Shown here: positions 3,001 to 19,516 of the stretch, piece by piece
How the letters are laid out: every line of letters begins with the position of its first letter
How positions within the stretch are numbered: position 1 is the first letter of the stretch
Virus record (IMG/VR): IMGVR_UViG_3300037041_000148
Coordinates: 1 to 20,091 of that record
Length of the DNA: 20,091 bases
DNA from: a virus
Reading direction: 5' to 3' (one strand)
Notes under the pieces: model-generated
Told to the model about the DNA's origin: nothing
Databases searched by the model: none
Seen by the model: only the letters and a program-made list of their open reading frames with translations
Position numbers and translations under genes: made by a program

Positions 3001-4861
3001 CGCTTTCTATTGGTGCATTTACCTTGTCCTTTTTGCCTTCGTCAATATATTGATCTATCTTTGACTTTTCTGGTATAGATTCAGCACCTTTAGAGGTAAA
3101 AGGGTTGAGCGTATCAATTAAATCCGCATACTCTCCAGCGGTAATCTCACGATTATTCAACCTAACTGCGGCGATGGCAAGCTCTGGATTCCTTGCCATA
3201 ACTTTGTTAGAAGATGCTTTATTAAAAGCGTCAGTTTCTTCTGGTGTTCTTGGAGTTATTTTTTGTCTCTCAACCGCCATTTTACGAACTTTAGCAGGCA
3301 CTTCTGTTACAGCAGGAGTCTCGGCTACGGGTTTTTGTTTTATTTCAGATATCCTTTGATCTGCTAAAGTTTGTGCATCAACAACAAGTTTATCGTCTTT
3401 AGGAAACCCCCATCCCTTTGCCTGTTTCTTTATTTCAGAAAGCGCACTTTTAATCTCAACTTCTGTTGTTGCTGCTCTTATAGATGGGTATGTCTCTATT
3501 GGTTTAACTTCCGCAAGAGTCTCGGCTACGGGGGCAGGCGTGATAGCGGTAACTTCTTGGGCAACTGGTAAGGATTCCTTAATAGTTGGTTCGATAGGTG
3601 AGGGAGTAATCTCGGCAATAGCAGGGGTAATAGGTTTTGTGACTGGTGCGGCAACTTCGGGTGCAACTTCTGATACAGGAGTAACAACTTCGGGTGCAGG
3701 TTCAGTAATCGCTTTTGCCAACTCAATCTGTTGCTTCTCTGCTTCTACCACTGGCTCGTTAGAATCTACTATGCTATCAACTTGGCCTTGTGCAGCGGCA
3801 AGGATAGCTTCTTTCTCTTTAAGTTCTAACTTGAGTTTCTGTGCGATTGGATCAGTTGATTCGATAGCTGATAGCACTTGCTTTGCATCAGCGACTTCTT
3901 GCTCAAGTTTCTGCTTGTTTGCCAGCACTGCTTTGCCTTGAGGATTATCGTTACCGATAAAAAGGTTCTCAGCTTCTTTGTTTGCACTCTCAGTAATCTT
4001 AGCTTCGGCGATTTGCTCTGGTGTGAATGGTGCAGAAACGATAGTTGCCGCTGCGCCTGCGCCACCACCAATCAACGCTTCACCGATTGCTTGCTTAGGA
4101 CTAACCTGTATTCCCTTCTTGGTTTCTATAGTCTCACCAACTTGTTGAGTCAAAGACTGCAAACCTTCGGGAATGCCTTCTCCAATAAATGAAGCGGCAA
4201 GGCGTTTGGAAAATGAACCAACTGCCTTCTCTCCACCCGGAAGATATTTGGCTCCAAAAGCATTTAGCAAACCAGAACCAGCAGCGGTTGCCACAGCATA
4301 AGCCATGTCTTCATCAGTTGGTTCTGTGTAACCATTGTTCTTGGCTCGTTCTAAAGCAACTGGCCCCACGATCTGCGCTGCTTCAAACAATGCTGGCCCT
4401 GCGAATGAACCTACTGCTGCCCCTGCAATGCTAGTAGCGGGACTTATCAATGCACCAAGTCCACCGCCAGCAACCGCGCCAGCAATACGAGTTCCAATAC
4501 TTCCAATGATTTGACCAGTCTGTTCTGCAATAGCTCTTGGAGCATACTGAGGAGCGAAGCCAGCAACTTGAAACTCGCCTTCTTGTGGCTCCATGAATCT
4601 TTGACCAGCGGAAACATAACCTTCTGGCTCTTGAATTGCGCCCTTCAATGCTGTGGCTACTGCGGGGAATCCAGCAACTTGCGCCGTTTCACCCATAGAC
4701 TCAAGTGGTTGACCAAACGATTGCTTGAGTGCCGCTGGAATCTGAGAGATTTCTTGACCAATAGAAGTGCCTACTTGATCGTCCTCATCAAGAAATGCTG
4801 CTGCATTTAATTGTTTTCTCTTAGGAGAATCCGATTCGTTTAGAAAATCTTCTGCTGTCAT
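1..4861 (-). CDS. Giant polyvalent-type virion protein with zincin-like metallopeptidase motif (3' end outside window)
   Basis: An uninterrupted reading frame of 1620 codons starts at the ATG at 4861-4859 and leaves the window at base 1, so the C-terminus is missing. Going from the N-terminus I see: a Gly/Ala-rich hydrophobic stretch (about residues 116-162) and an amphipathic GEGIPEGLQ segment (about 225); a coiled-coil-like part and a Pro/Ala/Val-rich linker (about 385-455); a globular beta-rich region (about 620-760); the zinc-protease motif HELGH at residues 856-860, followed about 45 residues later by acidic residues (ESQIEER) that could supply the third ligand; and a long helical region from about 1000 onward. 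This architecture is known from large 'polyvalent' phage and conjugative-element proteins delivered into the host with DNA. The start overlaps the stop of the upstream gene (ATGA), and a weak GGAT precedes it. It follows two internal-type proteins, so co-ejection is inferred. The substrate is unknown. Confidence 0.85.
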   Translation of the reverse strand, partial: MTAEDFLNESDSPKRKQLNAAAFLDEDDQVGTSIGQEISQIPAALKQSFGQPLESMGETAQVAGFPAVATALKGAIQEPEGYVSAGQRFMEPQEGEFQVAGFAPQYAPRAIAEQTGQIIGSIGTRIAGAVAGGGLGALISPATSIAGAAVGSFAGPALFEAAQIVGPVALERAKNNGYTEPTDEDMAYAVATAAGSGLLNAFGAKYLPGGEKAVGSFSKRLAASFIGEGIPEGLQSLTQQVGETIETKKGIQVSPKQAIGEALIGGGAGAAATIVSAPFTPEQIAEAKITESANKEAENLFIGNDNPQGKAVLANKQKLEQEVADAKQVLSAIESTDPIAQKLKLELKEKEAILAAAQGQVDSIVDSNEPVVEAEKQQIELAKAITEPAPEVVTPVSEVAPEVAAPVTKPITPAIAEITPSPIEPTIKESLPVAQEVTAITPAPVAETLAEVKPIETYPSIRAATTEVEIKSALSEIKKQAKGWGFPKDDKLVVDAQTLADQRISEIKQKPVAETPAVTEVPAKVRKMAVERQKITPRTPEETDAFNKASSNKVMARNPELAIAAVRLNNREITAGEYADLIDTLNPFTSKGAESIPEKSKIDQYIDEGKKDKVNAPIESGKEVEFRIDIPTYNRSTAAGDTVYAVTAHEPVPETSKRVGTPISYVGVAKVINPKMMTRSISGKGEAIDIATGSGKFPLATVKGNYEAITELPTDINDPNAWTEVSYNPIRSSYFVDVRSKNAVVGGDEAIMVGSRVFVKNPKMEARPKGIIGSDKRYMAVKPTPLAENERYGQVRLNLRVQNYFGGKIPNRVYVVDEAVDEEYEYKAAYYPSEGILILNNAFIKKNENVGDIIAHELGHYAFGDKKFKEAFDNFYKSLSLKEKAEINKIIDEGYSEDTEESQIEERKVIAFTSYTIANPQRRNLWNAVLDALKEFANKIFGKNFQMSDPNRTALAILSTAKKQFAAGKEIVREEEVEPLKMAVEPTPIEPEAKTITEGLVQGIDIGKENNMPINNKIESHIKNFAFVRGIFESASDRLRRAKFTKLATAIDDYYDQAQRRLGFANKILLPAFDEYSKQSKSTKKKIDEEVKRFFAAQENKRDTAEFFDELNPITQKIVTAWQKFGEESGNENQRIGIKVFDKGLQRWRPIGRVEKFWPRVLKPEYKRALMEPDKYQKEYNEIVDALMKSGRIQTPEEAEVFISDYQGTGSQNDYFSGIEAARGQAFPEELYDYSTQVMTDYVARWAQHSSRIEQFGQKLGENSKTLWDRSRESTRDRRTIDYITSAQERVEGYYPNDPIVKGMATLNIWSSGLQLGNPASSMLNFFGGTTLNAMVGQPGALSSYVSSFAELRKLGRELKDAREKGIVSRDLMNIVGDHQVVLESSGLAKAGQKTTDFLLKWSGFTPVEQMVRTQSMIIGKSFLRKTLSSLSKNPNSSFSKRALTWLNRNNIDADKLIVEQGTGPETDKLLRYFANISQGSYTIAQTPIFTDTPIGRFLFKYQKFSTQVMRQSWKNTFEPAWKAVTNKNETFQLPDQTRQLLYRLRLAEAKELGDNRKITLDEIPKKVTKAEGKALTIIPVMMWLGSAYVGGEVILRMRDMLFGVLMKGPSYEDIIKAFE
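3946..3959. promoter_or_regulatory. Inverted repeat TATCG-N4-CGATA inside the giant protein gene
   Basis: The coding strand reads TATCGGTAACGATA within the codons for LFIGNDNPQ. The 19-base block TTATCGGTAACGATAATCC is identical to that before the 320-aa gene. No start codon follows within 10 nt. Confidence 0.4.
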
Positions 4862-8029: not shown

Positions 8030-8572
8030 TTATTTGACCTCCTTATTTAAGTAAATATCAAGCCATGCTGATAACCTTGCATTTATAAAAAAATATACAG
8101 AAGCATCACTGGGTATATTGTGTATGATTGCAGTTGCTGCCGTGTAACAAGCTGGATTAGGGTATAACATTTTTCCCATACTATGAATATAGTTAGTTAT
8201 TTTTTCAATAATAAAATGTATTTCAGTAAAGTTTTTTTCAATGTGTTTTGAAACACTGTTCCAATTTGGGTCTGGTTTACCTTTATTGAAACTTGATCCC
8301 CAACCCGGAATTTTAATTCCAGCATTTAGATATGCTTTACATAATTCAATTGGGTCGGGTGACAAGAGTAATTCTGCCGCATCTTTTGTTGGGCCATGCG
8401 GCCCTCCCAATGTAGACAATGCCCCAATTACAGAACCAATAAAATTACCACTACCTTGACCTGATATTTTTACGGCAATTGATGAAGGGTTGTTTCTGAA
8501 AGAAGATTTGTAGTGAGCTTTGTTTAAAAGTTCCACTAACTTAGTTTTAGTTTTTACATTAGATTTTATCAT
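8030..8572 (-). CDS. Truncated citrate-synthase-like protein, probably lacking standard catalysis, 180 aa
   Basis: The sequence matches the C-terminal half of the citrate synthase / citryl-CoA lyase family in motif order. LGGPHGPTKDA (residues 55-65) corresponds to the family's GGxHG segment. IPGWGSSFNKGKPDP (88-102) corresponds to the IPGxGHxxxxxxDPR segment. NPACYTAATAII...IP (139-154) and FFINARLSAWLDIYL (161-175) correspond to the NVDxxxGxxx and LFxxxRxxGWxAH segments. Of the three catalytic residues known in citrate synthase (two His, one Asp), H59 is kept, the second His is Ser (S93) and the Asp is Ala (A141). The usual N-terminal domain is absent, since whole enzymes have roughly 250-430 residues. 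It may bind an acyl-CoA without ordinary turnover, or have another role. Its ATG overlaps the stop of the sulfotransferase-like gene (ATGA), and its 3' end carries the Shine-Dalgarno sequence of the next gene. Composition is very AT-rich. Confidence 0.7.
   Translation of the reverse strand: MIKSNVKTKTKLVELLNKAHYKSSFRNNPSSIAVKISGQGSGNFIGSVIGALSTLGGPHGPTKDAAELLLSPDPIELCKAYLNAGIKIPGWGSSFNKGKPDPNWNSVSKHIEKNFTEIHFIIEKITNYIHSMGKMLYPNPACYTAATAIIHNIPSDASVYFFINARLSAWLDIYLNKEVK
8036..8046 (-). promoter_or_regulatory. Strong Shine-Dalgarno sequence for the 579-aa gene
   Basis: On the minus strand AAGGAGGTC lies about 9 nt upstream of the ATG at 8028-8026 and overlaps the last codons and stop of the citrate-synthase-like gene. 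It is the only full-strength Shine-Dalgarno sequence I find before a start codon in this window, and it fixes the start of the downstream gene. Confidence 0.8.
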
Positions 8573-9105
8573 AATCCGTAGTTATTTAATACATTATGAT
8601 TAAGTGATGAAACGCACTCAATAAGATTATTAAATTTAATATTGTAATCTTTTACTTTTTTATAAACCTCTTTATCAAACTTTAAACCTCCAGATAAAAA
8701 TGAATATATTTCTTCTATTCTTGAATCAATTTCTTCATAGTTTATAGTTAAAGTTTCTTCGCCCTTTGACGCTTCACTAAGTAACTCGTTTTGTTTTATT
8801 ATAAAATCATCAATGCCTGTTATTCCTATTTTAGATAGTGAATCTATAACTTCATTCGCGTTTCTTTTTATAACAAGAATTCTTGGATCAAGCTCATCTT
8901 TTAATTCTTTTAACCTAAATACCTGAGACGTGTCGCAGCTTCCAATTCCTTCTGATTTTATTTTTTTTATCGCCGCTTCAAATGATTCAGATTTTCCTAT
9001 AAGCTCATGCTCGCAAGGTAATCCTGCTAATGTTAGATATAATGATAGCCATGCAGTTCTACTTCTAGGAAGGGATAAAATAATAAAATTTCTTTTATTT
9101 TTCAT
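8569..9105 (-). CDS. Sulfotransferase-like P-loop protein, 178 aa
   Basis: The N-terminus reads FIILSLPRSRTAWLSLYL (residues 7-24). This fits the 5'-phosphosulfate loop of PAPS-dependent sulfotransferases (LPRSGTTWL type). Residues R81 and S89 in ILVIKRNANEVIDSL stand eight apart, as the Arg/Ser pair binding the 3'-phosphate of PAPS does in that family. GSCDTSQ (55-61) follows a predicted helix. At 178 residues it is shorter than typical sulfotransferases (about 250-300), so the acceptor-binding part is reduced; the acceptor cannot be told. A related P-loop kinase is the main alternative. The ATG overlaps the stop of the adaptor-like gene, and the stop overlaps the citrate-synthase-like start, so both cargo genes are translationally coupled to the tail gene. 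The gene is much more AT-rich than the one before it (20-22% GC in two hand-counted lines, against 43-50% in two lines of the neighbour), suggesting acquisition. Confidence 0.7.
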   Translation of the reverse strand: MKNKRNFIILSLPRSRTAWLSLYLTLAGLPCEHELIGKSESFEAAIKKIKSEGIGSCDTSQVFRLKELKDELDPRILVIKRNANEVIDSLSKIGITGIDDFIIKQNELLSEASKGEETLTINYEEIDSRIEEIYSFLSGGLKFDKEVYKKVKDYNIKFNNLIECVSSLNHNVLNNYGL

Positions 9106-10070: not shown

Positions 10071-10084
10071 TATCGTTACCGATA
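10071..10084. promoter_or_regulatory. Inverted repeat TATCG-N4-CGATA before the 320-aa gene
   Basis: The coding strand reads TATCGGTAACGATA, extended by one further matching pair to TTATCG...CGATAA. It ends 6 nt before the ATG. As RNA it could form a 5-6 bp stem with a GUAA (GNRA-type) loop. It lies in the 21-bp gap after the 55-aa gene. The same sequence plus its flank (TTATCGGTAACGATAATCC) recurs inside the giant gene. Confidence 0.6.
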
Positions 10085-10279: not shown

Positions 10280-10831
10280 TTATGCAGAGTGGATTGCAAC
10301 CCAATCTACCTGCGTGATTTGAGAAATATTATTTTCAACTCGGATAGAAAATCCAGTTGTTGTTTTACTTGCTTCAACAATAGCAAACAAGGGTGTAGCA
10401 GCGGCCCCAATAGTTGCATTGCAAAATGGAGTAACCTGTGCGCTATAATTTGTATTTGGAAGCGCGGCAAATGATACTGTTTGAATAGAGTCTCCAATTG
10501 GTATTGAAGTTATTACTCCCCTTCTAACTGTAACGGAAACTAAACCATTAACTTGTGTCTGTAATGCAGTTACATCATTTTGAAGTTCCAATACTTGTTC
10601 TGTAAGAATATCAAGTTCTTGGTTAATTTGATTGATTTCTTCTGGAGTTACATCACCCAAACCCGGAACGTCGATAGTTCCATTTGCAAGAACTTCATCA
10701 ATAAATTGTTGAAACACATTCTGCCAATTTCCAGTTGGGCAGAAATCATCTGGAACATTTGGAAATATAAGTGCTGGTGATGAATCTTGATTGTCCGTAA
10801 GCCTGTAATGGTTAATTGTTAATAATTTCAA
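10280..10831 (-). CDS. Coiled-coil fibre-like tail protein, 183 aa (TTG start)
   Basis: An N-terminal segment FPNVPDDFCPTGNWQNVFQQFIDEVL (about residues 23-48) leads to a coiled coil (EEINQINQELDILTEQVLEL and onward, about 63-93). A beta-rich C-terminal domain (about 97-183) ends in GFSIRVENNISQITQVDWVAIHSA, a layout common in short phage tail fibres. The frame has no ATG near its 5' end: the best start is TTG at 10831-10829, giving MKLLTINHYRLTDNQDSS. The first 11 codons overlap or abut the 3' end of the GIY-YIG gene by 20 bp. From codon 12 (TDNQDSS) the DNA resembles the first codons of the GIY-YIG gene (MDNQDSN). The original start was probably MDNQDSS and was displaced by the endonuclease insertion. 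Trimeric fibre or spike role is inferred. Confidence 0.75.
   Translation of the reverse strand: MKLLTINHYRLTDNQDSSPALIFPNVPDDFCPTGNWQNVFQQFIDEVLANGTIDVPGLGDVTPEEINQINQELDILTEQVLELQNDVTALQTQVNGLVSVTVRRGVITSIPIGDSIQTVSFAALPNTNYSAQVTPFCNATIGAAATPLFAIVEASKTTTGFSIRVENNISQITQVDWVAIHSA
10781..10796. repeat. Direct repeat, distal copy, flanking the GIY-YIG gene
   Basis: TGAATCTTGATTGTCC on the plus strand matches 15 of 16 bases of the copy at 11418-11433 in the same orientation. The two copies bracket the homing endonuclease body. This copy lies in codons 13-17 of the fibre-like gene. Confidence 0.6.
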
Positions 10832-11435
10832 GACAATTTATTTGTCTTTGTTTTTTTAAAGCATAAGAATTTTTAATCGCTTGAATTCTTTTTGCAAGAA
10901 AAATCGGGTCTTGTTTTATCCCTTTATATTTTTTAGATTGCTTTTCTCGTTCTTCTTTTGAAGACCATCTTTTTTTAGCAGCCAAAGACAAAATTGCCTT
11001 ATGGTTTTCGCTTAATGGAACACCTTTTTTGTGACCGCCTTTTGTTTCTGGTCGTTCAGCAACCCTTCGTTTTTGTGATTGCCTTTGTTTTTCTTTAGTT
11101 TGTTCAGAATGAAAACCAGTAGAACCGCCACCTGACATTTTATTATATCCAAATTTATTATTATTAGATTTGTAATATCTTATCCAGCTTTGCTCGCGCA
11201 AATCAAGCATATCTATATTAGTTTCTTCTAAAACATGAAACTCAAAACATTGCTTCCCATATTTGTTGTATGCGCTTTGAAGATGCTTATTGTAATGTCT
11301 GTTTTGTTTTAAATGTAAAAAATGCCTATATTCTCTATCGACAATATTTCTTGTTTGACCAATATACCAAAAGCCATTTACAGTATTTTTAATACCATAA
11401 ATGCGACCAAGTATATTTGAATCCTGATTGTCCAT
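10812..11435 (-). CDS. Free-standing GIY-YIG homing endonuclease, 207 aa
   Basis: The catalytic domain is at the N-terminus: IYGI (residues 12-15) and YIG (24-26) form the paired signature, R34/R37 in DREYRHF supply the catalytic Arg region, and E81 in LREQSWIRYY is the metal-binding Glu. GYNKMSGGG closes the domain. Two NUMOD3-like DNA-binding helices follow (HSEQTKEKQRQSQKRR about 104-120, and LSENHKAILSLAAKKRWSSKE about 139-160), then a Lys-rich C-terminus. Such enzymes cut a specific site and spread into intact copies by recombination; they are usually dispensable for the phage. It sits between the 619-aa tail gene (4-bp gap) and the coiled-coil fibre gene (20-bp overlap). The first codons are a near copy of the fibre gene's original 5' end. 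It is more AT- and Lys-rich than its neighbours, consistent with recent arrival. Confidence 0.88.
   Translation of the reverse strand: MDNQDSNILGRIYGIKNTVNGFWYIGQTRNIVDREYRHFLHLKQNRHYNKHLQSAYNKYGKQCFEFHVLEETNIDMLDLREQSWIRYYKSNNNKFGYNKMSGGGSTGFHSEQTKEKQRQSQKRRVAERPETKGGHKKGVPLSENHKAILSLAAKKRWSSKEEREKQSKKYKGIKQDPIFLAKRIQAIKNSYALKKQRQINCLEIINN
11418..11433. repeat. Direct repeat, proximal copy, at the start of the GIY-YIG gene
   Basis: TGAATCCTGATTGTCC on the plus strand encodes residues 2-6 of the endonuclease (DNQDS) on the minus strand. It differs from the copy at 10781-10796 by one base (a synonymous Gln codon change). Confidence 0.6.
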
Positions 11436-11439
11436 TGTT

Positions 11440-13299
11440 TTAATTTACGATATTGTATTCCCAATATTTTTCTTGGCAACAAGAAAATGGTTCACACTCT
11501 TGATTTTCTTCAGGGCAGTCACCTATTGGAGAATCATCGTTGTTCTTGATGTTTGCCATCAATCTTACTCGATCAACAGTAGCTGCTCCAGTTAAGTTTA
11601 CTTTGATTTGGAACTCGCTTCCTTCTACTGATGGGATGCCTGCCAAGTCATTACACTCACTTGGATCAGGAGTGTTAAACTTGTAGCGTTTGTAGCGATT
11701 GCCGCCCCGTTGTGGTAAACATTCGGTTACTACTGGCGAGCATGGTTCACATCCAAATGTCGTAGGAACTTTTAGTTGTGACCAACATGGATTGGAGTCG
11801 GCACGAAAATCAACATAGCTTTCAACGTCACCTTTTATTTCACTCAACCACATTTCTCCACCAGTAATTTTTTTGCGTAGGAACTTGTTTGTTGCGCCAC
11901 TTCGGTTGAAGTCATATCTACCAGTTGTAAAAAACGATTCAATTTTTCTGGTTCCATTTGGCCCATAATCTTCAGTTTGACTTACTGTGAATTCATAAAG
12001 ACGATTTTTATTATCTTTATCAAACGAAAATCCAAACCCCCGTTTTTCACCCTTGATAAACGCAAACAATAATTGCGTTGGTCTAAACCCAGTCCAAATA
12101 CCATTCCAACGAAATGAAAGTTGAGCATCAGGAGAAGCGGATGACGCTTGATCCAAATCAAGAACTATCATACCACGATGAAAACGATTCAACCCCTCGA
12201 CACCTTCAGCCCGATATGTTTGCGGTGCAACAGTGCTGATTAAATAGTTATCAAAAAACACTGTGGACGCGAACTGCTTCAACCAAGGAGTATCGTTCTG
12301 CACCCATTTGTTGACTTCCCTCGAAAGTTTACGAAGCGAAAAGTATCTATTGAATTCAGATTGTGTATTTGAATAGAACGCCCAACCATCGTGTGATCTA
12401 AACCAAAGTTCAGAGTTTGCTAACGCAGTATATGGAGATACGCAACCTCGCCCGATCAACGAAATACGCTGAACATTTGAAGTTGTCCATTGCGCCCTTG
12501 GTAATGAAACATCCATTGCAAATGCGCCGTTACTTGTAAGAACTACAAGCTGTCCTTGGCCGCGAAGATTCAACCCAATTTCTGGCATTACTTTCATGCC
12601 AGTTATATCGCCCATCATTGCTGGAGTTGAAAAAGCTCCACCACCAGACCAATAAATTATCTCTGTAAAGTTTTTTGTGTTGCTTGTGTCTGTAAAACCA
12701 TTGCCATAAATAATGTCAGATGCGTAAATATTGTTATTTTTATCAGAAACAAATACTCTACCAAACGCATATTCCATTATCGTTCCAATTGGCATTTCTC
12801 CTGCAAATGAATTTAATCTAGTTACGCTTGTGCTTAAATTTCCATTCCATGCAATAGGTAAATTAAATCCGTTTTGAATATACAACCAATCTTCTGCTTG
12901 CACAAACCATGTGTGCATCTGTCCCGGATCATTCCATGACCAATTTGTTGGCGTTGGTAGAGCGTAAGCATATGCTATATTATTATCTATTTTAAGAAAA
13001 TAAATTTTACCAGATACTGATAAAATCAGTCCGTCTGATGTGGTATAGTTTGTCGATCTATAGGCATACGAACCTTGAAAACTACCGCCAAGAATATCGT
13101 TAACGATAGTTTCGCTTTGTCCAGTAGCAGCTACAATTGGGATATTGCGGATGCTTGGTCTAGTTCGATTAACGCCACCTCGAAATGTCCTGTTTACCGA
13201 TTCTGATACTATAGACTCTGGTAAATACGAAGGATGCGTATCGGCATCTTGTGCTACGATACTTGTGAATCCATCAAAAACTGATCCTTCAGTTGGCAT
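11440..13299 (-). CDS. Putative tail/nozzle-type structural protein, 619 aa
   Basis: This is a large beta-rich protein with repeated short segments of the kind found in phage tail nozzle or DNA-stabilisation proteins (GKIYFLKIDNNIAYAY, EDWLYIQNGFN, ELWFRSHDGWAFYSN). The N-terminus (MPTEGSVFDGFTSIV...LPESIVSESVNRTFRGGVNRTRP) resembles openings of such tail proteins, where a short conserved arm precedes a propeller-like body. I infer a tail role from this and from its place between fibre genes and the adaptor-like gene; no diagnostic motif proves it. The last 100 residues are Cys-rich (CEPCSPVVTECLP and, near the end, CPEENQECEPFSCC). Its start overlaps the 132-aa gene by 11 bp and no Shine-Dalgarno sequence is seen. 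An inverted repeat of the TATCG-N4-CGATA family lies inside its 5' region, in the codons for ETIVNDILG. Confidence 0.7.
   Translation of the reverse strand: MPTEGSVFDGFTSIVAQDADTHPSYLPESIVSESVNRTFRGGVNRTRPSIRNIPIVAATGQSETIVNDILGGSFQGSYAYRSTNYTTSDGLILSVSGKIYFLKIDNNIAYAYALPTPTNWSWNDPGQMHTWFVQAEDWLYIQNGFNLPIAWNGNLSTSVTRLNSFAGEMPIGTIMEYAFGRVFVSDKNNNIYASDIIYGNGFTDTSNTKNFTEIIYWSGGGAFSTPAMMGDITGMKVMPEIGLNLRGQGQLVVLTSNGAFAMDVSLPRAQWTTSNVQRISLIGRGCVSPYTALANSELWFRSHDGWAFYSNTQSEFNRYFSLRKLSREVNKWVQNDTPWLKQFASTVFFDNYLISTVAPQTYRAEGVEGLNRFHRGMIVLDLDQASSASPDAQLSFRWNGIWTGFRPTQLLFAFIKGEKRGFGFSFDKDNKNRLYEFTVSQTEDYGPNGTRKIESFFTTGRYDFNRSGATNKFLRKKITGGEMWLSEIKGDVESYVDFRADSNPCWSQLKVPTTFGCEPCSPVVTECLPQRGGNRYKRYKFNTPDPSECNDLAGIPSVEGSEFQIKVNLTGAATVDRVRLMANIKNNDDSPIGDCPEENQECEPFSCCQEKYWEYNIVN
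13095..13108. promoter_or_regulatory. Inverted repeat TATCG-N4-CGATA inside the 619-aa gene
   Basis: TATCGTTAACGATA is a perfect 14-bp palindrome about 190 bp into the coding sequence, preceded on the coding strand by AAAC exactly as in the copies before the two fibre genes. No start codon follows at the usual 4-6 nt, so it would not act as a leader hairpin here. Confidence 0.45.
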
Positions 13300-15838: not shown

Positions 15839-15935
15839 AGTTTTATCGTTAACGATAGTTTAGGTTTGTGTCAAGGATAAATTCTCCAATTTTTTACGCT
15901 ATAAAAAAGTTATATCAAATGTAATTTTTTTTAAA
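15839..15935 (-). promoter_or_regulatory. Intergenic region with candidate promoter (TTGACA plus palindrome)
   Basis: This 97-bp gap is the largest in the window. On the coding strand TTGACA (plus-strand 15869-15874) lies 17 nt before TAACGA, which overlaps the right half of the palindrome at 15844-15857. This could be a sigma70-like promoter with a weak -10 and an operator over it. Upstream of it the gap is A/T-rich (runs of A and T near 15901-15935) with only a weak A/T stem and no convincing terminator. Confidence 0.35.
15844..15857. promoter_or_regulatory. Inverted repeat TATCG-N4-CGATA before the 91-aa gene
   Basis: TATCGTTAACGATA is a perfect palindrome ending 5 nt before the ATG at 15838. 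The coding-strand context AAAC-palindrome-AAA is the same as before the 876-aa fibre gene. Confidence 0.65.
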
Positions 15936-18566
15936 TTATAGATAAGAAATATTAATTGTTCCAGCGTCAAATGTATCTGTTCCGTTTACTGTGGTAATAC
16001 GAATGCGGTCAAGCGCACCTGATAATGCTGGTGCGCTTCCAGAGCAATTCATTGCATGGGATGTTTCAATTGATCCCAATGAAGAATAAATCCAGTTATT
16101 AGAATTTACATTAAAAATTGTTACGTTTCCTGTGCAAATGCGTGGAGCTGTTGGGGCTATATTAAATAGTAATCCAATTGCGCTTGTTGCTATATTAGTT
16201 CCAGCAGATGAAATAAAACCACCAAAAGACGAATAGCCAGATGTTGAAAACGATCCAGAACCTATTTGAATTATTATATCAGAACTTCCGGTTGTTGAAA
16301 TTTTATTGAACATTACAGTAATTTGTTTTGCAGAACTTGGAATACCAGTAAAATCAACCAAAGTTCCAGTGGCGGTTCTTGATGTTGCTAGTGTTAGTTG
16401 TCCTGCCGGTCCTACTGGCCCTTGAATTCCAGTTGCCCCTGTCGCGCCCGTGCCGCCTGTAGTTCCAATGCCCGTAGCTCCTGTGCTACCAGTTAAACCT
16501 TGAATGCCTTGGATTCCTGTTGCGCCTCGAATGCCTGTAGCTCCAGTAAGTCCAGTTCCACCAGTTAGTCCAGTAGAACCTTGAACGCCCGTTGCTCCAG
16601 TAGCTCCAGCAATACCAATTCCTGTTGCGCCAGTCGATCCAGCAATCATTGCTGTAGTTTGGATTGTCCCATCACCAAATTTAACGCCAGTTGTATCGAG
16701 TGAAAGTGCAACTGTTGCGTCTGGAGTTACGCCAATACCAACCCTTCCGCTTGCAGATACAACAAATGGAGTTGAATCAGGAGATTCGTCCTCAACACGC
16801 AATGCTTCTCCTGCCCCTGTTTGAGTTACGCGAAGTGCGGAATTTGCACTTGATGTTGAAATAACTTGAGGCTGGCTAAATGTATTAGCAAACAAAGATG
16901 CAGCTTGATAAGTCGCGCTATTATGTCTCCATGACAATTGTGGATTGCCAATCCAAATATCTCCATTAACTGGAGATGTCGGCCCAGTTCCTTGGCTAAC
17001 ATTTAATCCAGCAGATGTTGCTGTTGTTCCAACAGTCAACTTCCCTGTCATCGTGTCGCCAGACTTTAAGACATATCCAGATAAATCAGCGGTTGGGCCA
17101 GTCGCGCCCGTAGCTCCAACAACTCCACTTGCTCCAGTTGCACCTGTCGCTCCTGTAGCTCCCGCAATAGTAGCGGTAGTTTGGACTGTGCCATCGCCAA
17201 ATTTAATTCCGCTTGTATCTACGGACAAGGAAACTGCTGCGTCAGGAGTTACGCCAATACCTACCCGACCAGTATTAGAAACCACAAATGCCGTGGCATC
17301 AGGAGTTGTGTCATCCTCAACTCGCAATGCTTCACCCGTTCCTCTTTGCGTAACTCGTAAAGCAGGGAATGAATTGGAAGTGTCAACTGTTTGAATTGAA
17401 TTGAATGTATTTGGAAGATTTGTAGCTGCTGAATTATATGAAGTCCCTCCTGATCGCCAAGCGAACCTGTTACCGCCTGTAATCCATAAATCTCCATTTG
17501 CTGTAGTTGTTGGACTCGTTCCTACAATAAATCCAATATTAAGTTTAGAAGCAGTATCGTCAGCGGCAGCAATTAACTTTCCAGTCATTGTGTCGCCAGA
17601 CTTTAAAACATAGCCAGAAAGATCAGCAGTTGGGCCAGTAGCTCCAGTCAATCCCGTTGCGCCTTGTGGCCCAGTAGCCCCAACTAATCCAGAACTAACA
17701 ATCGCAAAGATCAAATTCTGAGCATTTGCAAACTGAGATGTTCCTCCAGAGGTAACTAATGTTATAGGGATCGTTACATAGCTATTTAGAACAACTGTAG
17801 GAGTTGCAGAAATTTCCCATGTCTGGAAATTGGCAGAATTACCTTGGTCTTGAATAACAAACTTGTCTCCCGTTTTGAATAACGGAAAAAATACATCAAT
17901 GTCATTTCCAAGAGAATCAATATGAGAAAGTGTAACAGTAGTTGCAGATACTTGTGTTAAATTGTTCCAAATGATTTTTCCATTAGCAGGAACTCCAGAA
18001 ACATTTACTGCGTCTGCTTGGTAATTGTAGAACGAAGCAGATTGCCCCGGTAATCCTGTTGCTCCAATTGGCCCAGTTGCTCCCGTGCCGCCTGATCCAC
18101 TCGCTCCAATCGGGCCAGTCAATCCTGTAGCTCCGCGAGGGCCAACCATTCCAGTAGCACCATCTGGCCCAATCGGCCCTTGTTGTCCTGTGGCTCCAGT
18201 AGCCCCCGATGCGCCAACCCCAGTTGATCCTTGTAAACCTGTAGCACCTTGCTGTCCTTGAATTCCTGTGCTTCCAGTCGCTCCGCGCAAACCTGTAGCC
18301 CCTGTAGTTCCGTTGATACCAGATAATCCTGTAGCCCCTGTAGCCCCTTCGCCTGTTGCCCCCGTGGCCCCTGTTGGCCCTCCCGATGGGCCAGTAGAAC
18401 CAGTTAAACCTGTCGCACCTGTTGCGCCAACCCCTGTAGCCCCTGTAGCCCCACTTGCGCCTATGGCATTTTGAGCAAGACAAGCAGATTGTGCTGCACT
18501 AATAGCAGATTCCTTAGCTGATCTTGCGTAGGATGCAACTATGATTGTCTCATTGCAATTGCTCAT
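15936..18566 (-). CDS. Collagen-like tail fibre, 876 aa
   Basis: A 36-residue N-terminal helical segment ([20 protein letters not shown]...) is followed by collagen-like G-x-y repeats, mostly GATGATG, at about residues 37-175. A beta spacer comes next, then two copies of a roughly 165-residue module (about 314-468 and 494-641). Each module begins [18 protein letters not shown] and ends GVGIGVTPD...FGDGTxQTTA, and both are bounded by further GATG runs. A C-terminal head (about 723-876) has [20 protein letters not shown]...[22 protein letters not shown], a pattern seen at the ends of many phage fibres. The protein should trimerise into a long fibre for host recognition. The start follows a perfect TATCGTTAACGATA palindrome at 5 nt. 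The repeats make this gene prone to recombination and misassembly. Confidence 0.9.
16645..17630 (-). repeat. Tandem duplication of a fibre module within the 876-aa gene
   Basis: Two related modules with their starts about 540 bp apart share near-identical borders. One example is the segment encoding [15 protein letters not shown] near 17040-17085 and again near 17580-17625. Another is the GEALRVED...[15 protein letters not shown] part. The middles have diverged, so the duplication is not recent. Confidence 0.8.
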
Positions 18567-18571
18567 TTTTT

Positions 18572-18585
18572 TATCGTTAACGATA
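18572..18585. promoter_or_regulatory. Inverted repeat TATCG-N4-CGATA before the collagen-like fibre gene
   Basis: TATCGTTAACGATA is a perfect palindrome ending 5 nt before the ATG at 18566, inside the 38-bp gap after the phosphoesterase gene. TTGACT (plus-strand 18596-18601) lies upstream on the coding strand, 16 nt before TAACGA. The arrangement parallels the one before the 91-aa gene with one base less spacing. Confidence 0.65.
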
Positions 18586-19502: not shown

Positions 19503-19516
19503 TATCGGTTACGATA
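19503..19516. promoter_or_regulatory. Inverted repeat TATCG-N4-CGATA before the phosphoesterase gene
   Basis: The coding strand reads TATCGTAACCGATA, with both 5-base arms intact and only the central four bases differing from other copies. It ends 4 nt before the ATG at 19498 and includes the TAA stop of the upstream gene. Confidence 0.6.

Follow-up and report, generated by a model that had tools for sequence, protein, structure and literature searches.

A putative free-standing GIY-YIG homing endonuclease element at the first codons of a tail-fibre gene in uncultured phages, with a possible portable non-AUG start

Homing endonuclease genes without introns are known from phage T4, where the seg genes and mobE are GIY-YIG or HNH genes located between structural or metabolic genes, and where they start near or overlapping the stop codon of the upstream gene, suggesting translational coupling (extracts of PMC2988022). 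The same extracts describe mobE in the nrdA gene of phage Aeh1 and mobA in gene 60 of T4, both lying inside a phage gene that stays functional. In fungal mitochondria (Allomyces, Glomus) mobile ORFs in atp6, atp9, cox2 and nad3 bring a foreign copy of the part of the gene that they displace, resulting in a hybrid but intact gene (PMC3630166).

The locus described here shares with seg and mobE an intron-less endonuclease gene that lies between genes and starts by the upstream stop codon. However, the T4 neighbours are intact and the extracts of PMC2988022 do not describe a substitute downstream start, whereas the present endonuclease starts with codons of its target and the target ATG has been replaced. 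While the Aeh1 nrdA and T4 gene 60 targets are split into two polypeptides (same extracts), here one whole fibre protein is encoded, since the fibre ORF is whole after the insert and is not divided in two. The element resembles the fungal mobile ORFs (PMC3630166) in bringing a substitute for the displaced part of the target, but those place a replacement 3′ end on an unaltered 5′ part of a mitochondrial gene and leave the native part after the element, whereas here the native part is the left copy at the 5′ end, the replaced part is the 5′ end including the start signal, the element is found in a phage, and endonuclease-free putative scars exist, making the element a 5′ counterpart of the fungal ORFs. 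The I-TevI gene lies within a self-splicing group I intron; no such intron was found at this locus. The present element joins features of the free-standing type to a substitute 5′ part that includes the start, and it is polymorphic with the endonuclease-free putative scars; our literature search found no report of a phage endonuclease with a non-AUG substitute start.

The window, by which we mean the whole stretch of DNA that was analysed, is a virus record of 20,091 bases (WIN in comparisons), and relatives from IMG/VR are given L-numbers (L081, L122 and so on). On the minus strand the order is a gene for a 619-aa protein (11440..13299), the GIY-YIG endonuclease ORF (10812..11435), a tail-fibre-like gene (10280..10798, 172 codons counted from an ACG codon) and a gene for a 320-aa protein. 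The 619-aa gene is the upstream neighbour in the relatives as well, and the original fibre start is found 4 nt past its stop codon. The endonuclease ORF (207 aa) is as described in the first-pass annotation of this DNA and begins at the ATG of the fibre gene. An annotated phage collection held no record resembling the window, either by DNA or by the 619-aa protein, and no relative of the 619-aa protein was found among bacterial and archaeal genomes.

The GIY-YIG catalytic domain was recognised by Pfam PF01541 (26.6 bits, cutoff 22.6), by PHROG 314 (1.7e-32) and by its relationship to the catalytic domain of I-TevI (E 2.3e-9), and NCBIfam TIGR01453, a family named group I intron endonuclease, matched with 64.9 bits (cutoff 56.05). 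With a start and a stop codon of its own, the ORF takes up the insert, and no intron was found by Rfam, placing it outside any intron or intein. Two of the relatives, L081 and L082, carry the gene besides the window, and the three endonuclease proteins are 80–90% identical with dS values of 0.29–0.71 and dN/dS ratios of 0.17–0.20, showing that the endonuclease gene is under purifying selection. A fold predicted from the three sequences had a mean pLDDT of 51 and was set aside. The predicted structure of the fibre protein (mean pLDDT 80) combines a disordered N-terminus with a long coiled coil and a beta head. The best Foldseek matches, to tail fibres of R-pyocin and phage AP22 and to H-type lectins, were weak (best E 1.7e-3), and the protein also matched the PHROG 38064 tail collar family (5.7e-4).

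It had been noticed that the sequence TGAATC[CT]TGATTGTCC occurs at both ends of the endonuclease gene, and this is indeed so: the window holds exactly two copies (10781-10796 and 11418-11433) and no third copy even with up to three mismatches allowed. Dinucleotide shuffles gave a mean of 0.49 matches at that tolerance, and the repeat is by itself only suggestive of something beyond chance. Read on the coding strand, the left copy ATGGACAATCAGGATTCA and the right copy ACGGACAATCAAGATTCA are identical at 16 of 18 nt, and both are in frame and encode DNQDS. It is this in-frame match, together with the single origin at a fibre start seen in the relatives, that makes the repeat more than a chance occurrence. 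The left copy (11418..11435) is the original fibre start of the recipient and now forms codons 1–6 of the endonuclease, while the right copy ACGGACAATCAAGATTCATCA (10778..10798) is the substitute for the first fibre codons.

The 619-aa and fibre proteins were used to collect large numbers of relatives from IMG/VR, and after removal of identical junctions 128 distinct ones remained. The fibre gene starts with ATG in 115 of these and with GTG in three, in both groups directly before GAC/T-AAC/T; four are endonuclease-free with ACG, three are carriers and three have another structure. The ATG and GTG junctions, 118 of the 128, are without endonuclease, and their fibre start is offset by −8 to +6 nt relative to the end of the 619-gene stop. 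The N-terminal peptide in this group is DNQDS in 55 cases, DNQSS in 36 and DNADS in 11, with minor variants besides, and most of these fibre proteins start MDNQDSSPA, MDNQSSSPA or MDNADSSPA. The prediction that endonuclease-free relatives would have an MDNQDSS-type start close to the stop of the 619-aa gene holds over this position range, and the empty junctions bear out the claim that the endonuclease inserted at the gene boundary and took over the original ATG and first codons. The three carriers have the insert at one fixed site. In two relatives by the 619-aa gene (L331 and L332) the place of the fibre gene is taken by a different one (ATGAAACTAAATACC...).

Clean breakpoints are seen in L081 and L082; for the window itself, the nearest empty relative has an identity of only 89% upstream and 68% downstream. 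For L081, an almost perfect empty site is provided by L122: the two do not differ in the 113 nt that could be compared upstream, nor in the stretch up to and including ATGGACAATCAAGA, then L081 has the insert, and after it follows ACGGACAATCAAGATTCATCT in L081 as compared with ATGGACAATCAAGACAGCTCG in L122. The downstream mismatches lie at positions 1, 14–17 and 20, six in 21 nt, with the next one at nt 122, and within this 21-nt tract all differences are synonymous (D-S-S) except for the start codon. L082 compared with L067 gives a matching pattern (mismatches at 1, 11 and 14–17, the next at 144). The insert is positioned after fibre codon 5 or 6, and the replacement codons at the right end of the element read ACG GAC AAT CAA GAT TCA TCN. 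These patterns show that the right copy arrived with the element and replaced approximately 21 nt of the recipient, whose own sequence has, judged from the alignments, not simply been duplicated. The proposed duplication of the neighbour's 5′ codons stands insofar as both copies derive from one fibre start, but the right one is an element-borne replacement in which ATG has become ACG. The element thus carries a divergent copy of the fibre 5′ part that it displaces, and the target ORF stays intact.

The right end is conserved beyond the fibre codons. In all carriers the endonuclease stop codon is followed by a 13-nt spacer and then by ACG, and in the fibre frame a 24-nt segment, ACA ATY AAC MAT TAC AGG CTT ACG, with only two variable positions, is present before the fibre gene in eight records of seven lineages. 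In the window it reads ACA ATT AAC CAT TAC AGG CTT ACG (10796..10819). The lineages are the carriers WIN, L081 and L082 and the endonuclease-free L031, L045 (with its near-copy L046), L181 and L156; all seven have ACAATYAACMATTACAGGCTTACG in common, and three pattern scans of IMG/VR gave no lineage beyond these among the matches listed. Across the segment and the copy, WIN and L082 share 40 of 42 nt, although their endonuclease genes are only 53% identical in the final 60 nt.

In L156 the right end of the element lies at the position where, in its relatives L315–L326, a plain fibre start (ATGGATAATCAAGATTC) overlaps the stop of the 619-aa gene, and the 619 protein of L156 terminates at the stop codon of the element; the plain ATG start of these relatives shows that the segment was inserted in L156. 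In L031, L045 and L181 the 619 stop is joined to the right end at TTAA, a sequence found both at the end of the 619-aa gene and near the end of the endonuclease gene, and joints of this kind would be expected if a short-homology deletion had removed the endonuclease. As the three joints are identical, they may reflect a single deletion that spread by recombination. We infer from these junctions that the endonuclease was lost rather than never present. On the reverse strand of L156, near 6079, the old fibre start is also ACG (TTTACGGA as compared with TTTATGGA in its relatives), so that the ATG is gone from both the old and the new start sites. This double loss fits selection for ACG, for instance as a cleavage-resistant site.

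The opposite direction has to be considered, namely that the ACG start is an old natural fibre allele beside which the endonuclease inserted once, later carrying it along, and that the endonuclease-free ACG phages never had the gene. Four of the seven ACG lineages indeed lack the endonuclease, no fragment of it was seen in them, and the identical junction in three lineages would also follow from such an ancestry. On the tree of the 619-aa gene, from which L081 had to be left off because its upstream sequence is too short to place it, every ACG row is however nested among ATG rows: the allele requires six changes for six rows, each forced by supported branches, and a single ACG clade is rejected (p-AU 3e-37). 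With the segment in L156 being an insertion relative to its relatives, and the right-end tract being clearly foreign in L081 and L082, we regard an old ACG allele as unlikely. The scatter over the 619-gene tree and the 21-nt foreign tract together point to horizontal spread with replacement of the recipient flank.

The replacement of the fibre ATG raises the question of where fibre translation starts. It had been proposed that it begins at a TTG within the last codons of the endonuclease gene (10829..10831), which is in frame in WIN and L081 and is a codon accepted as a bacterial start. The TTG does exist at 10831, but it has no ribosome-binding site, lies within the coding end of the endonuclease and is not conserved as a start. 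L082, L031 and L181 lack any ATG, GTG or TTG from the preceding in-frame stop to DNQDS, which means that the TTG at 10831 is not a general start, and we consider initiation there improbable. In WIN, L081, L045 and L156 a GTG or TTG is present further upstream in frame. An internal restart downstream was rejected as well: the first canonical codon past DNQDS lies anywhere from codon 14 to codon 43, differing between the phages, and a start there would cut into the best-conserved region of the protein or remove it entirely.

Two candidate codons are present in every lineage, an ATT or ATC six codons upstream of the ACG, and the ACG itself. The candidate ATT of the window (10814..10816; ATC in L031, L045 and L181) shares its final T with the endonuclease stop TAA (10812-10814). 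Measured from the upstream stop, the ATT/ATC has an offset of −5 in the carriers and L156 and of +2 in the scars, inside the native range of −8 to +6, while the offset of the ACG is +13 or +20, outside that range. The candidate ACG (10796..10798) occupies the ancestral ATG position and is ACG in all seven lineages. The only Shine-Dalgarno element at the new start is AGG, 3 nt before the ACG, and no RNA structure beyond that of shuffled sequences was predicted there for six sequences. Of 14 genes of this phage only one has a strong Shine-Dalgarno sequence, the signal being weak or absent at most, which suggests that translation here natively relies, in all likelihood, on reinitiation coupled to the upstream stop. 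In bacteria the infC gene is an established case of an AUU start (Butler 1987 and Brombach 1987, as cited in PMC9845219). From these positions the ATT/ATC beside the upstream stop appears more likely to be the start than the ACG; we lean towards the former, hold the latter to be a possible but less favoured candidate, and expect only with low probability a start at some other codon. The disordered start of the predicted fibre structure would probably tolerate a few extra N-terminal residues.

Fusion of the fibre to the upstream protein by frameshifting, instead of new initiation, could be imagined from the overlapping or abutting frames and from the several phages without a canonical start. 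It would require +1 relative to the endonuclease in the carriers but −1/+2 relative to the 619-aa gene in the scars L031, L045 and L181, leaving no common frameshift site, and no RNA structure was predicted, which makes it very unlikely. A group I intron with the GIY-YIG ORF in frame with its 5′ exon, where splicing would restore the fibre ORF, is suggested by the NCBIfam family name and by the fact that such ORFs can be continuous with the 5′ exon, but we rejected it as extremely improbable because no Rfam match was obtained at gathering or permissive thresholds, the insert is taken up by the 207-codon ORF except for 13 nt ahead of the ACG, too little for a ribozyme core, the repeat offers no cut point at which a U would precede the 5′ splice site and a G would end the intron with the ORF restored, and the scars retain the right end without any 5′ exon.

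Collectively, comparison of the junctions argues for a free-standing GIY-YIG homing endonuclease element that, in a family of uncultured phages, has the first tail-fibre codons as its target; we assign this reading a probability of roughly 0.85. The putative target of the endonuclease would be the ATGGACAATCARGAYTC site of the empty relatives, and the element would spread by double-strand-break repair (homing). The ATG and first codons of the recipient have become the N-terminus of the endonuclease itself, which would be made from the native coupled start, while the right end supplies the 13-nt spacer and the substitute fibre codons, replacing about 21 nt and keeping the fibre frame whole. The fibre would then be made by reinitiation at a non-AUG codon, and the endonuclease-free ACG alleles would be scars of endonuclease deletion. 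Whether a portable non-AUG start (AUU/AUC beside the upstream stop, or ACG) replaces the fibre AUG and becomes fixed after endonuclease loss we put at even odds; the reason for fixation is perhaps that the change from ATG to ACG also renders the site uncuttable.

This locus presents at base resolution a case of an intron-less homing endonuclease that has entered the coding sequence of a structural gene and left the gene intact. By sequence, a phage structural gene lacks an AUG, GUG or UUG start in several natural cases, making non-AUG initiation testable in nature, and the true fibre start in such phages would be missed by a standard gene caller. The endonuclease-free scars would allow past homing to be traced after loss of the gene. 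If the proposed scheme is true, endonuclease invasion has given a structural gene a permanent non-AUG start in no fewer than seven lineages of phages.

Some other features of the window were observed. A 14-nt palindrome, TATCGTTAACGATA, occurs exactly or nearly so at six places (3946-3959, 10071-10084, 13095-13108, 15844-15857, 18572-18585 and 19503-19516) as compared with 0.27 matches expected, mostly a few nt upstream of start codons. The copy within the 619-aa gene is exact in 113 of 127 distinct relatives, its codons ATC, AAC, GAT and ATT being invariant while the neighbouring codons vary, and the palindrome may act at the DNA level, as an operator, a promoter or a nuclease site that is conserved even inside a gene. 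A 180-aa ORF at 8030-8572 is similar to the citrate synthase C-terminal domain (PF00285 with E 5.5e-6, slightly short of the cutoff) and has weaker NCBIfam citrate synthase matches, unexpected among tail genes. The ORF at 8569-9105 (178 aa) matches the PHROG 10855 hydrolase (4.9e-11) and lies between structural genes, and an 876-aa ORF at 15936-18566 contains many GATGATG collagen-like repeats.
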